A stretch of DNA of 22,868 nt, from the IMG/VR virus record IMGVR_UViG_3300031658_000143, positions 1 through 22,868 of that record. The stretch is one strand, 5' to 3'. The notes under the pieces were generated by a model. That model ran no database searches and was not told where the DNA came from. It saw only the letters and a program-made list of their open reading frames with translations. This stretch comes from a virus. A program made the position numbers and the translations under genes. Below, in pieces: positions 5,384 through 17,755 of the stretch. Position 1 is the stretch's first letter; every line of letters starts with the position of its first letter.

Positions 5384-6200
5384 TGAACAAACGACCACTA
5401 ACGATAATCCAGTAGAAAATACAGTACAAGAAAGTACAATTTTAGGATCGGGAAGTGACAATCAAGACTGGAGATCGTCATTACCAGATGATCTTAAAAA
5501 TGATGCTACTTTACAAAACTTTAAAGATGTAGAAAGTCTTGCTAAAACAGTAGTACACCAACAAAAAGTATTAGGTAGTAGAATACCTATACCTAAAACT
5601 GATGAAGAAAGATCAGAACTTTATACTAAATTAGGAAGACCAGAATCTGGAGAAGCATATGAATTTACTATTCCAGAAACTCATAAAAGTCATTTTAATG
5701 AAGACCAAGTAAAAGAGTTTAGAAATGTTGCACATCAAATAGGTCTAAACAACGATCAAACAAAAGCATTAATAGACTTTCAAGTTAAATCTGTTGACCA
5801 TGAATTAGAAAGACAATCAACTGATTTGAATGTAACAAAACAAGCTACGGAAGATACACTAAAAAAAGAATGGGGATATGATTATGATAAACAAGTTAGG
5901 AATGCACAAAGAGCATTACAAGTTTATGGTAATGAAGAACTTAATGAATTAATGAATACAGAGGCAGGTAATATACCAGCAGTTGTTAAATTATTTGCTA
6001 GATTAGGTTCAGAAGTAACAGAAGACATGGCTAAAAATACACAAAATAATAGTCTAGCTACTTCACCATTAGATGCACAATCTGAAATAGATAGTATCTT
6101 TAGTAATGCTACCGATCCCTACCATGATAATATGCATAAAGATCATACGAATAGAGTTGAGTATATGCGTCAATTACATGAAAAAAGGTTTGGCAAATAG
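5376..6200 (+). CDS. Capsid scaffolding protein
   Basis: This protein directs assembly of the procapsid and is then lost or cleaved from the head. At 274 residues it is acidic and hydrophilic, with a disordered Thr/Asn/Glu-rich N-terminus (1-30), a DWRSSLPDDLK...TLQNFKDVESLAK segment (31-60) and a conserved P..D.ERSELY.KLGRPE....YEF segment (75-100). The last two features are typical of podovirus scaffolds, as is the largely helical remainder. It lies between the portal side and the major capsid gene, as expected. Its start has a GGAAG ribosome site within the end of the previous gene. The -35 element of the capsid promoter lies in its last codons. Confidence 0.9.
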   Translation: MADEQTTTNDNPVENTVQESTILGSGSDNQDWRSSLPDDLKNDATLQNFKDVESLAKTVVHQQKVLGSRIPIPKTDEERSELYTKLGRPESGEAYEFTIPETHKSHFNEDQVKEFRNVAHQIGLNNDQTKALIDFQVKSVDHELERQSTDLNVTKQATEDTLKKEWGYDYDKQVRNAQRALQVYGNEELNELMNTEAGNIPAVVKLFARLGSEVTEDMAKNTQNNSLATSPLDAQSEIDSIFSNATDPYHDNMHKDHTNRVEYMRQLHEKRFGK

Positions 6201-6218
6201 TTAAAAGTTTGTTATAAT
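6190..6218 (+). promoter_or_regulatory. Near-consensus sigma70 promoter for the capsid genes
   Basis: The -35 hexamer TTGGCA (6190-6195, five of six consensus bases) and the -10 hexamer TATAAT (6213-6218, six of six) are separated by exactly 17 bases. The -35 lies in the last codons of the scaffold gene and the predicted start point is near 6225, in the only sizeable untranslated gap of the window. The fit is unusually good, but the region is AT-rich and the promoter has not been shown to work. It implies use of a host-type RNA polymerase. Confidence 0.7.
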
Positions 6219-6402
6219 TATACAATCTAATTCGCCCATTTTTGGACAACGGAGAAGTAGCCATGATTGGCTTTAAACTTCCGATCTGATCGTATCGTTT
6301 ACGATAAGGTTTCCCGCAAGGACAAAGACCGATAATATGGAATATGGATTAGTATAATTATATCATTCCCACTATTCTTTACTTTTAAAAAAAGGACAAA
6401 AA
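6219..6402 (+). promoter_or_regulatory. Structured 5' leader of the major capsid gene
   Basis: This is about 180 bases without a long ORF and visibly richer in G and C than the neighbouring genes. Three local pairings can be drawn: GAAG 6254-6257 with CTTC 6278-6281 enclosing AGCC 6259-6262 with GGCT 6269-6272; TATCG with CGATA around 6293-6306 (loop TTTA); and a weaker GGTTTCC/GGA...ACC arm near 6308-6330. An eight-codon ORF with its own ribosome site lies inside the first hairpin. The 3' part has a 7-base tandem repeat ATATGGA (6335-6348), a second copy of the palindrome TATAATTATA (6353-6362; first copy 6213-6222), and the capsid ribosome site AAAGGAC. It could be a translational control element, an mRNA-stabilising leader or a small RNA. 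Confidence 0.5.
6263..6289 (+). other. Candidate leader peptide ORF (8 codons) upstream of the capsid gene
   Basis: The ORF encodes MIGFKLPI and is preceded by GGAG at 6251-6254, 8 bases from the ATG, which is a better ribosome site than many real genes here have. The ATG falls in the loop of a short AGCC/GGCT hairpin, and the ribosome site can pair with CTTCC at 6278-6282. This is the arrangement expected of a small regulatory upstream ORF, but an ORF this short can arise by chance. Confidence 0.3.
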
Positions 6403-7263
6403 ATGTCAACACAAATAACAACGGCTTTTGTAGAACAATACAAAAGTAATGTGTTTCATTTGGCTCAACAAAAAGGTTCTAGATTAAGAGGTGCGGTTAA
6501 AACTGAAACGGTTACAGGGAAAGCACACTTTTTTGAAAGAATTGGGTCAACTGCGGCACAATTAAGAACGTCACGACACTCCGATACTCCAAGAGTAGAT
6601 ACTCCGCATAGTAGAAGAAAAGTGACAATGAACGACTACGACTGGGCAGATTTAATTGATAATGAAGATAAAGTAAGAATGCTTATATCTCCACAATCTG
6701 AATATGCACAGGCTGGAGCATACGCAATGGGTAGAGCTATGGATGACGCAATTATTGCGGCAGCTACTGGCAATGCACTTGGCGGAGTTGCAGGTGGAAC
6801 TTCAATAGCTTTACCAGCGGGTCAAAAAGTGGCTCATGGTTCTGCTGGATTATCAGTAGCAAAAATTATTTCTGCTAAAGAAATTTTAGATGCAGCTGAA
6901 ACTAATCCAGATGAAATGAAATGTATAGTATGTTCAGCAAGTCAGATTTCTGATTTGTTAGCAATTACACAAATTACTTCTTCTGATTACAATTCAGTAA
7001 AAGCACTAGTACAAGGTCAAATTGACACATTTATGGGCTTCAAGTTTATTAGAACACAAAGACTTGGAACAGATAGTGATGGTAATAGACAAGTATTAGC
7101 ATTCAATCAATCTGCATTAGGACTAGCAGTTGGATCAGATATATCTACAAAGATATCTGAAAGAGCTGATAAGAACTATGCAACACAAGTATTTTTATCT
7201 ATGACAATCGGAGCTACGAGAGTAGAAGACGAAAAAGTAGTTGAAATTGCTTGTACAGAGTAA
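6403..7263 (+). CDS. Major capsid protein
   Basis: This forms the icosahedral shell. The 286-residue length, the position after the scaffold and the sequence pattern fit the HK97-fold major capsid family of HMO-2011-like and related podoviruses: N-terminal helix (ITTAFVEQYKSNVFHLAQQ), an F.E.IG-like segment (ARRIAMS-type position: HFFERIGSTAAQ), then P.V.TPHSRR.V.M.DYDWADLID..D..RM, and the spine helix AGAYAMGRAMDDAIIAAATG. The second half has the A-domain pattern (SVAKIISAKEILDAAE.NPDE..CIV.A.QI.DLL) and a C-terminal V.LSMTIGATRVEDEKVVEI strand. There is an AAAGGAC ribosome site before the ATG. It has its own promoter and leader upstream. It shows no frameshift site of the T7 gene 10 type at its end (TAA followed directly by TAG). 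Confidence 0.93.
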   Translation: MSTQITTAFVEQYKSNVFHLAQQKGSRLRGAVKTETVTGKAHFFERIGSTAAQLRTSRHSDTPRVDTPHSRRKVTMNDYDWADLIDNEDKVRMLISPQSEYAQAGAYAMGRAMDDAIIAAATGNALGGVAGGTSIALPAGQKVAHGSAGLSVAKIISAKEILDAAETNPDEMKCIVCSASQISDLLAITQITSSDYNSVKALVQGQIDTFMGFKFIRTQRLGTDSDGNRQVLAFNQSALGLAVGSDISTKISERADKNYATQVFLSMTIGATRVEDEKVVEIACTE

Positions 7264-7784: not shown

Positions 7785-7812
7785 AAGGGCGGGATTATAC
7801 TCGCCCTTTTTA
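7785..7812 (+). terminator. Intrinsic terminator after the capsid genes
   Basis: The arms AAGGGCGGG (7785-7793) and CTCGCCCTT (7800-7808) form a nine-pair stem with one G-U pair and a six-base loop, and a run of five T follows (7807-7811). In such AT-rich DNA this GC-rich hairpin with a T-tract stands out. It would end or attenuate the capsid transcript before the tail genes. Confidence 0.85.
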
Positions 7813-16500: not shown

Positions 16501-17755
16501 AATGACTATAAAAAGACTTGAAAAAGAAAATGCTAAATTACCAGAAGGCAGTAAAATGTCTGAAAGAGAATTATTAGAATTAGCAGGTTTTGAAGCTAGA
16601 GATTTAACTGTAGATTTTAGAAAAATGGGAACAGCAATGCAAGGGCTTAATATGATTAATGCATTTTTTAATGCAAGGGTACAAGGACTAGTTAAAATAA
16701 AAGAAGGTCTTGCTGATCCTAAAACAAGAAATAAAGTAATGTTAAATGGTATTAGAAATATTACTGCACCTTCATTATTAATTTGGTATAGTAATAAAGA
16801 TAGTCAAGTTTATAAAGATTTACCTCAATGGCAAAAAGACTTAAATTGGATTATAATAACTAAAGAAGGTACGGAAGATCAAATAGTATGGAGAATACCT
16901 AAACCTTTTGAAATAGGTTGGATTTTTGGTACTTTGCCAGAAAGAATATTAGATGGTATATATAATTCAGATGGTGGTAAAGATTTAATTAATTCTTCTA
17001 AACAATTTAGTTACGATTTTATAAAATCTTTAGGCCCAGTACCAGAATTTATGAAGCCTTTTATGGAAGATTATGCTAATGAAAGTATGTTTTTTCAAAG
17101 ACCAATAGTTCCTTATGCTTTAGAAAGACTATTACCAGAATATCAATATTCAGAATACACAAGTGAAACTGCAAAATTAATTGCTAGTGTATTTGAAAAA
17201 TTAAGACCAGAAGAAGCAACAGAATTGTTTGGCCCAAGTTTAGATAGTCCTGCTAAAGTAGAAAATTATATAAGAGCATGGACAGGTGGATTAGGTAAAT
17301 ATACATTAGATGTATTAGATTATGCTTTAAAAAAAACAGGTGTAACAACACCAGTTAAAAAACCTTGGTCAGATAATTGGATTAAAAATTTAGCTGATAT
17401 GCCTATAATAGCCTCATTTGTTATTAGAAATCCAAGTGCTTCATCAGAACATATTACTAAATTTTGGAAACTATGGATGCCTGTTCAACAAAAACTTGCA
17501 ACATATAACTATTTAATGAGCCAAAATAAACCAGAAGAAGGTGTGAAAATCTTTAATAAAATTGACCCAAATAAATTAACTTTAGAAACTACAGCTGGAG
17601 TTATCAAGGGTATTGGTGATTCAATAGATATGATATATAAGAATAATGAAATTGACCCAAATGAAAAAAGACAGTTAATAGATGGATGGTATCTAGATAT
17701 AATTGGAATGGCAAAAGAATCTTTAAAAATACAGAAAGAATTAAAAAATAAGTAA
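13505..17755 (+). CDS. Giant ejection protein (gp16-like) with coiled coil and LPD38-like region
   Basis: At 1416 residues this is the largest protein in the window and fits the T7 gp16 slot (about 1300 residues), the last internal protein of the DNA-ejection apparatus. Residues 1-120 are acidic and Trp-rich. Residues ~120-275 are Gly/Ala-rich and hydrophobic (ETVVGLGADLPTFIAGGAAG, VKGGLVVGSMSVAPLALGAM), able to insert in membranes. Residues ~298-490 are a Lys/Glu coiled coil. From ~850 to 1150 the pattern (LAAPTRTLRAGATLDPAFILKNFGRD near 872-897, then NAFFNARVQGL near 1055) matches the LPD38-type region of phage and plasmid polyvalent proteins. No lytic transglycosylase or peptidase motif is visible, unlike T7 gp16. 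The ribosome site is weak. Confidence 0.85.
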   Translation: MADLLNEDLLMEASGFTEDTEGYGKYKEKEYNLLKDAGVSDEELQGIKFESNALKSTNQGWWKNAIDGVGDWAVGDDADWDTYWERGLGKSNINLATQFHSSGKYGYDWQKAMEAEPEDTGALERAFETVVGLGADLPTFIAGGAAGKVLTGGSAFGTGFGAGFVNDSIKGMYVEALNRGEVNSFSEWWDIFLKHGVAEGVKGGLVVGSMSVAPLALGAMKIPTNYITKNMSRWVALTGVGAMLDGELPSKETMVNNALILGAFGIVEPKAAKMVNDSSLKNKTDTNTIVDQTIKNIQMKEDAGSKNIKTYRKDRKITELEITVIKKELVELNKLDTLSKPKVVENKAKEIERLEAEVKLLKDKILKPAKNLTESVKDINLTKLKIAEKELAEAKDGNLIEKGQVEAFTEGQKIKLEKETKELSDKIQEAQVEFNIIKGKKKNGEMFNEDRYIELKNLIKKNANKIIENNKLLNKDKRILELEEQLADRGETVTRIVEQDKSINRSSDKDVNAIMDKVALGKMKVNNNFKSYAANLVTSMIDRLYPILEAVKEAKDRGVKVGKLDVYKQMRLSVGNIGKGFHFIKHATFDFRTLKDNGKGLTVILKDVIKTPDKYRDFNAFSIAKRALEKFAQGIETGFSSSKSERAGLKRVIEKFEKEFGQTHKELQEYQQRVLVYLKDSGLLSAELFERVLELNKDFVPLHKVMDASIKADSLGNIVKNPIRKIKDSILEKDKPVIDPIENMMLNTIHFISMAEKNAINKSFINMALEAQKAKNKNPELDLFADIKEIKDLKPVKVSKEELKDIIIDNKGTTANLEHGMTIFRQNGSFVDKTKIAVYENGKPKIYEVGKDFADALKDANWFQTQAWARILAAPTRTLRAGATLDPAFILKNFGRDTFFASVFSKNSFVPFWTSMKGIFMQFGDKGHKSTEVYKQFMKSGGMQSTLLSFDRSYFKDGQMLSELTGRKLHNTINPKSWLETLRVFSEMVETGSRLGDFKMTIKRLEKENAKLPEGSKMSERELLELAGFEARDLTVDFRKMGTAMQGLNMINAFFNARVQGLVKIKEGLADPKTRNKVMLNGIRNITAPSLLIWYSNKDSQVYKDLPQWQKDLNWIIITKEGTEDQIVWRIPKPFEIGWIFGTLPERILDGIYNSDGGKDLINSSKQFSYDFIKSLGPVPEFMKPFMEDYANESMFFQRPIVPYALERLLPEYQYSEYTSETAKLIASVFEKLRPEEATELFGPSLDSPAKVENYIRAWTGGLGKYTLDVLDYALKKTGVTTPVKKPWSDNWIKNLADMPIIASFVIRNPSASSEHITKFWKLWMPVQQKLATYNYLMSQNKPEEGVKIFNKIDPNKLTLETTAGVIKGIGDSIDMIYKNNEIDPNEKRQLIDGWYLDIIGMAKESLKIQKELKNK

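Follow-up and report, generated by a model that had tools for sequence, protein, structure and literature searches.

What is encoded in the single long gap of a pelagiphage gene map, and does it act on the capsid gene that follows? SAR11 are the most abundant bacteria of the ocean, and few viruses of the sea are as abundant as the HTVC010P-type pelagiphages. The window, i.e. the whole 22,868-base stretch analyzed here (IMG/VR record IMGVR_UViG_3300031658_000143), is a fragment of an HTVC010P-type pelagiphage, a SAR11 podovirus. Its capsid shares 80% identity with the Baldr capsid (Pelagibacter phage EXVC032P) and 54–60% with those of HTVC010P-type pelagiphages; 5' of it lie a capsid-assembly/protease-like gene and the gene for the head-tail connector (portal), and 3' of it the tail genes. 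By gene prediction, the 202-nt gap at the capsid-assembly/capsid junction (6201–6402) is the window's sole intergenic stretch longer than 60 nt, as the initial annotation had noted; its further remark that the stretch is less AT-rich than its surroundings holds for the core of the element described below (6226–6334, GC 0.43), whereas the gap as a whole is about average (0.325). As a separate observation on the records used, the genome records of Baldr (L082, OQ414636.1) and Hodr (L089, OQ414635.1) carry each other's locus tags, Baldr genes being tagged EXVC031PHodr and vice versa.

For comparison, 80 viral loci with capsids 75–94% identical were taken first and further loci were added via divergent queries; a covariance model, R1, was built from 13 sequences. 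The features of the window are collected in Table 1. In window-type relatives, the leader elements follow a common order, consisting of a CCC-loop-GGAYAA segment within a stem (P1), a hairpin followed by UUAAA (P2), an optional hairpin (P3) and a second CCC-loop-GGAYAA segment within a GGUUU/AAACC-like stem (P4); in a few relatives the bulge is a variant one or the first module is weaker. The register of these segments was fixed by relative L306, in which the inner pair beside the P4 loop is swapped from C-G to G-C, so that the first C of CCC must remain unpaired opposite AYAA; the module is thus a C/AYAA internal loop present in both P1 and P4. An additional spacer hairpin, P5, was seen by eye in most of the 33 relatives with a long spacer, its stem varying between GGAAUA/UAUUC, GGAUA/UAUC and GGGAUA/UAUCC.

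Table 1. Features of the capsid leader and its surroundings (positions refer to the window unless a locus is named)
Feature	Position	Strand	Description and basis
Extended -10 element TGTTATAAT	6210–6218	+	TATAAT/TATTAT-type -10 with TG; predicted start ~6225
Conserved structured leader RNA (core)	6226–6334	+	Covariance model R1, pair counts, tree-based test
Hairpin P1	6231–6253	+	UUCG/CGGA stem, C/ACAA internal loop (6235; 6246–6249), CC/GG, variable loop
Hairpin P2, AGCC/GGCU	6259–6272	+	Loop 6263–6268, then UUAAA 6273–6277; four pairs with two-sided changes
Pseudoknot, P2 loop with triplet before CG	6265–6281	+	Loop/triplet complementarity
Optional hairpin P3	6289–6305	+	Six pairs with two-sided changes; 6291/6303 at E = 0.000; missing from shorter variants
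Hairpin P4, GGUUU/AGACC stem	6308–6330	+	Second C/AYAA module (6313; 6322–6325); three stem pairs with two-sided changes
Optional spacer hairpin P5 (GGAAUA/UAUUCU)	6339–6378	+	By eye on sequence alignment
Likely Shine-Dalgarno AGGA of capsid gene	6393–6396	+	Placement ahead of ATG 6403
Major capsid gene, preceded by leader RNA	6403–7263	+	PHROG 3437 major head protein, E = 6e-93
Intrinsic terminator ending the unit of capsid and next gene	7785–7808	+	Terminator scan; strong
Second leader RNA, HTVC010P	L083 2361–2464		Covariation; also L085, L086, L090, L412 and other HTVC010P-type leaders

We analyzed whether the paired positions change together across relatives. In the model-fitted alignment (n = 55 sequences), 97.3% of cells were paired, 18 pairs showed two-sided changes, double-change cells numbered 185 (44 ± 6 in shuffled controls and at most 22 with slid partners) and the covariation score was 0.415 (0.138 shuffled, at most 0.076 slid), all figures from a structural alignment (A4) which was fitted to the model and is biased in favour of the structure. 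A tree-based null, in which the changes of each column were placed randomly on the tree, was therefore also run. Under this null, six pairs reached E ≤ 0.05, five of them within P1, P2 or P3, and most other helix pairs ranked high; all four lower pairs of P1 had changed on both sides, three of them at E = 0.000. Similarly, P1 and P3 pairs led again when a sequence-only alignment was used (E 0.007 to ~0.15). G-U pairs outnumbered A-C combinations by 54 to 2, which argues that it is the plus strand that folds, as RNA, and compensatory changes on the mRNA strand, as found here, are what a cis-acting structured leader would in general be expected to display. Single-sequence fold energies were mildly low (z -1.45 for the window, mean z -0.7 for the family core) and barely under those of shuffles on both strands, so that the case rests on the comparative evidence. 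Taken together, this evidence indicates that 6226–6334 is a real, strand-specific structured RNA with a conserved fold. Covariation and conservation in relatives had been set beforehand as the test by which the annotated hairpins could fail; the outcome favours these hairpins, and the idea of a cis-acting RNA gains support from a conserved, covarying fold upstream of the capsid gene.

Beyond the hairpins, the P2 loop appears to pair downstream. A first, cruder scan, diluted by over-extended P2 stems, had given a weak signal (3.06 versus 2.90; 47 of 5000). The test was then re-defined, with P2 fixed at 4 bp and its loop compared with the triplet that precedes CG, after the pattern had been noticed, which means that the hypothesis was shaped on the same sequences. 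In this form, the last three P2-loop bases were complementary to the triplet in 13 of the 21 distinct combinations, compared with 5.9 ± 1.6 upon re-pairing (0 of 20,000 as good), in counts that include related, non-independent sequences. Nine pair types were encountered, e.g. GAU/AUC, GUG/CAC, GUU/AAC, GCA/UGC and GGU/ACC, and short variants devoid of P3 displayed longer loop complements, e.g. UAUGU/ACAUA; the window itself forms two of the three pairs only (G6265-C6281 and A6266-U6280). As judged from these compensatory combinations, P2 with its A-rich linker and downstream loop pairing is an H-type pseudoknot.

With regard to transcription, 89 of 109 leaders carry a -10 hexamer 15–18 nt 5' of the first CCC, mostly with an extended TG, and in 54 of the 109 the distance is exactly 16 nt; given this position, transcription would be expected to start at the first hairpin. 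In the window, TTGGCA (6190–6195) and TATAAT (6213–6218) are separated by a 17-nt spacer, with a TG at 6210–6211. Promoter-like matches within the window were not in excess of expectation (56 versus 58.6 from shuffled sequence). No -35 was conserved across the leaders of relatives (n = 109), and TTGGCA, which is the end of the coding sequence of the upstream gene, was rejected as a -35 box. Of the promoter that had been ascribed to the capsid gene, the extended -10, whose distance hardly varies among relatives, was thus retained and the -35 was not. These observations support a host-type, extended -10 promoter as the one that would drive the capsid gene, and HTVC010P-type phages are described as having no RNA polymerase of their own and as depending on the host enzyme (PMC10504331). 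A start ~7 nt past the -10 would make P1 the 5'-terminal element of the transcript, in agreement with the annotated structured leader starting near 6225. The leader RNA ends 21–75 nt before the capsid ATG across relatives, and a terminator scan found no terminator between the two in the window. In the most divergent relatives (L062, L079 and L080), a GC-rich hairpin (e.g. GCAAGCGC...GCGCTTG) was observed in place of the usual -10 spacing, which suggests that their promoter differs.

The element is tightly confined in its distribution. R1 matched at the capsid leader in the window-type relatives tested, weakly in the most divergent ones, with one site per complete genome. A pattern scan of the collection yielded at least 111 capsid-linked sites, and the nine other matches were unrelated chance matches in GC-rich coding sequence. 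Among the matches listed, genuine copies were found only upstream of this capsid family; such constant placement within the 5' UTR of a single gene family, downstream of a promoter, is in general characteristic of a cis-acting leader. The Manatee Spring, Alteromonas ZP6 and Hodr relatives gave no R1 match, and no convincing copy was obtained from 289 sampled alphaproteobacterial genomes, which were searched with stricter filters; since Pelagibacterales could not be selected as a group, absence from the host is a sampled one. Candidate host or prophage copies were discarded, the 46 genome matches to the P4 pattern being due to chance except for phage contig L238, and the alphaproteobacterial match L416 lying antisense within a transporter gene, without P4. 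L238 (NHDJ01000148.1) is assigned to a Verrucomicrobia MAG of marine origin (TMED56), has both leader and capsid, and is probably a pelagiphage contig that was mistakenly binned. Separately, two overlapping R1 matches were observed in the L078 record (G005 16613–16758), which may reflect a partial leader duplication or an alternative alignment.

HTVC010P, Greip, Lederberg, Skadi and their relatives carry another conserved, covarying leader at the same place upstream of the capsid gene. In this second family, 98.5% of cells were paired and 54 double changes were counted, compared with 15 in shuffled controls; the corresponding model, R2, matches its members at 96–122 bits. R1 and R2 generally fail to recognize each other's families, with weak bridging matches in L102 (R1 17.0, R2 22.4 bits) and L035 (R1 18.5, R2 18.7 bits). 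Common to both leaders are the order of elements, a hairpin followed in the second leader by UUUAAA, and a 3' hairpin whose C stands, in the second leader, opposite AKAA. On these grounds, the two leader families likely share descent. In some phages the second leader overlaps in part the end of a small gene that precedes it; where this gene is missing (L349, L353 and L365), an inverted repeat (AATCCCTTG...AAGGGATT) is found 5' of the second leader and could represent a promoter or a terminator.

Since the shape has been kept while the letters changed, the folded RNA probably controls how much capsid protein is made. The reading that we favour, and consider rather probable, is that this cis-acting structured 5' leader controls the translation or the lifetime of the capsid mRNA, most likely via a bound factor. 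Host RNA polymerase would initiate at the extended -10 promoter and first transcribe a compact RNA comprising P1, the P2 pseudoknot, the optional P3 and P4, with the C/AYAA module occurring twice; this leader would then set the translation efficiency or the lifetime of the capsid message in late infection. The unpaired module letters (C, AYAA and UUAAA) are almost invariant across relatives, as is seen for single-stranded letters in factor-binding RNAs. The factor would more probably be a protein than a metabolite, and the twofold occurrence of the module points to two sites or a dimer. The comparison establishes the RNA, its strand, its fold and its constant association with the promoter and with the capsid gene; the transcription start, the bound factor and the effect on translation are what we infer. 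As the module is repeated, a bound factor should be directly searchable by pull-down.

The initial annotation had singled out an eight-codon mini-ORF (MIGFKLPI), whose GGAG (6251–6254) and ATG (6263, in a hairpin loop) are indeed present in the window and would suit control by a leader peptide. The ribosome site (GGA) of this ORF is the 3' arm of P1, and the conserved small ORF by which a leader-peptide attenuator is generally recognized was not found: peptide, start position, frame and Shine-Dalgarno sequence all vary, and the ATG is missing in 28 of 85 distinct relatives. A regulatory role of the ORF therefore did not hold up, and we regard leader-peptide control as extremely improbable. The proposed pairing of its ribosome site with CTTCC (6278–6282) is likewise unconserved, CTTCC overlapping instead the 3' strand of the covarying pseudoknot. 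Equally improbable is a DNA element (a packaging, origin or recombination site) that is palindromic by chance, which would fit a non-coding, conserved stretch and is disfavoured by the G-U excess, i.e. by a plus strand read as RNA, and by a promoter directly upstream. That a small trans-acting RNA is processed from the late transcript, as the compact conserved fold might suggest, seems very unlikely in view of the strict linkage to the capsid ATG and of the missing terminator behind the RNA.

The main rival to a factor-bound leader is a purely protective 5' structure, in which the leader would constitutively cap the transcript against 5'-end-dependent decay (ompA-like) and keep the ribosome site clear, with neither ligand nor switch. 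P1 starts a few nucleotides past the predicted start, and a promoter of its own serves the capsid unit, which in some phages also ends in a terminator, all of which would suit such a role; the near-invariant unpaired C, the AYAA occurring twice, UUAAA and the covarying pseudoknot nevertheless exceed the needs of a protective stem, and we take this alternative to be unlikely, if a serious one. Processive antitermination of the HK022 put type, with the nascent leader binding RNA polymerase and passing terminators into the tail genes, would agree with a leader at the very start of a late host-polymerase transcript and with the terminator-like hairpin that the window and some relatives have past the capsid unit. 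Such sites are found within 900 nt 3' of the capsid gene in just 20 of 78 relatives, compared with 1 of 78 shuffled, and put RNA consists of two adjacent stem-loops, the likeness being one of general description; the antitermination reading is improbable, slightly more so than a metabolite riboswitch that would sense the state of the infected cell and gate capsid translation. For the latter speak the H-type pseudoknot with an A-rich linker and the invariant internal loops, which resemble small riboswitch folds, and the use of riboswitches by SAR11 itself (paper cited in PMC12753301). Against it, no Rfam riboswitch matched, no copy precedes any metabolic gene among the matches listed, and none of those in the 289 sampled alphaproteobacterial genomes was convincing.

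Returning to a factor-bound leader that sets capsid output, such a leader might act by exposing the ribosome site of the capsid gene; once P1 and P4 are open, their conserved CCC strands could mask this site. The predicted unpaired probability of this site is 0.27 with the real leader, 0.33 with shuffled leaders and 0.40 with P1 and P4 forced; in these predictions, the CCC strand of P1 or P4 is frequently the partner, and the masking differs between relatives. These folding predictions are suggestive only, and point weakly to masking of the ribosome site by the leader. More tentatively, and with less confidence than for cis control itself, we propose a new class of factor-binding leader in which an H-type pseudoknot between two C/AYAA copies tunes the capsid output of SAR11 tailed phages, the HTVC010P-type leader being a homologue diverged nearly beyond sequence recognition. 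If true, this RNA would date back as far as the capsid lineage does and would occur widely in the ocean. Late-gene control in those HTVC010P-type phages that lack an RNA polymerase of their own is little known, and an RNA on the capsid message offers a concrete handle.

How does the leader compare with known RNAs? Rfam 15 gave no match at the gathering threshold for the window and 16 related loci and chance matches only in a relaxed search, which bears out the earlier statement that no described RNA family has this form. The glutamine riboswitches (glnA RF01739 and Downstream-peptide RF01704) are alike in being marine, short and followed by a small ORF, and the letters ACGGAGAAGUAG in the 3' arm of P1 recall the glnA core; these letters are unconserved, neither model matched at E up to 10, and a glutamine riboswitch was rejected. 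The preQ1-I and SAM-II riboswitches are H-type pseudoknots, in which a hairpin loop pairs downstream across an A-rich linker; the leader differs from them in its flanking hairpins with the repeated C/AYAA module, its capsid context and the lack of an Rfam match. HK022 put RNA is structured and likewise lies 5'-terminally in a phage transcript that the host polymerase synthesizes, whereas the present leader belongs to a late capsid transcript, has a pseudoknot and is not generally followed by terminators.

Closer in setting are the rpsB, rpsL and ffh motifs of Candidatus Pelagibacter ubique, which (PMC2704228) are similarly GC-rich intergenic RNAs of an AT-rich SAR11 genome and likely cis-regulatory; they belong to host ribosomal and SRP genes in other contexts, and those in Rfam gave no match. 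No such element is described in the available parts of the papers on SAR11 and marine structured RNAs (PMC2704228, PMC2864571), a comparison that does not extend to the 224 RNAs of Weinberg 2017 or to Ocean-VI (2010 set, without an Rfam model); the paper on Skadi, an HTVC010P-type relative, reports no terminators or riboswitches (PMC10504331), and we found no literature report of a structured leader on the capsid gene of a dsDNA phage. The cyanophage manA, wcaG and PhotoRC-II RNAs (PMC2864571) are likewise conserved and structured, possibly lie in the 5' UTRs of marine phage genes and have a largely unknown function; in T4-like cyanophages they stand ahead of host-like genes for metabolism or photosynthesis. 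In contrast, the leader described here matches none of their Rfam models and precedes the structural capsid gene of a SAR11 podovirus, an unusual target given that structured leaders of marine phages have so far been tied to metabolic genes.
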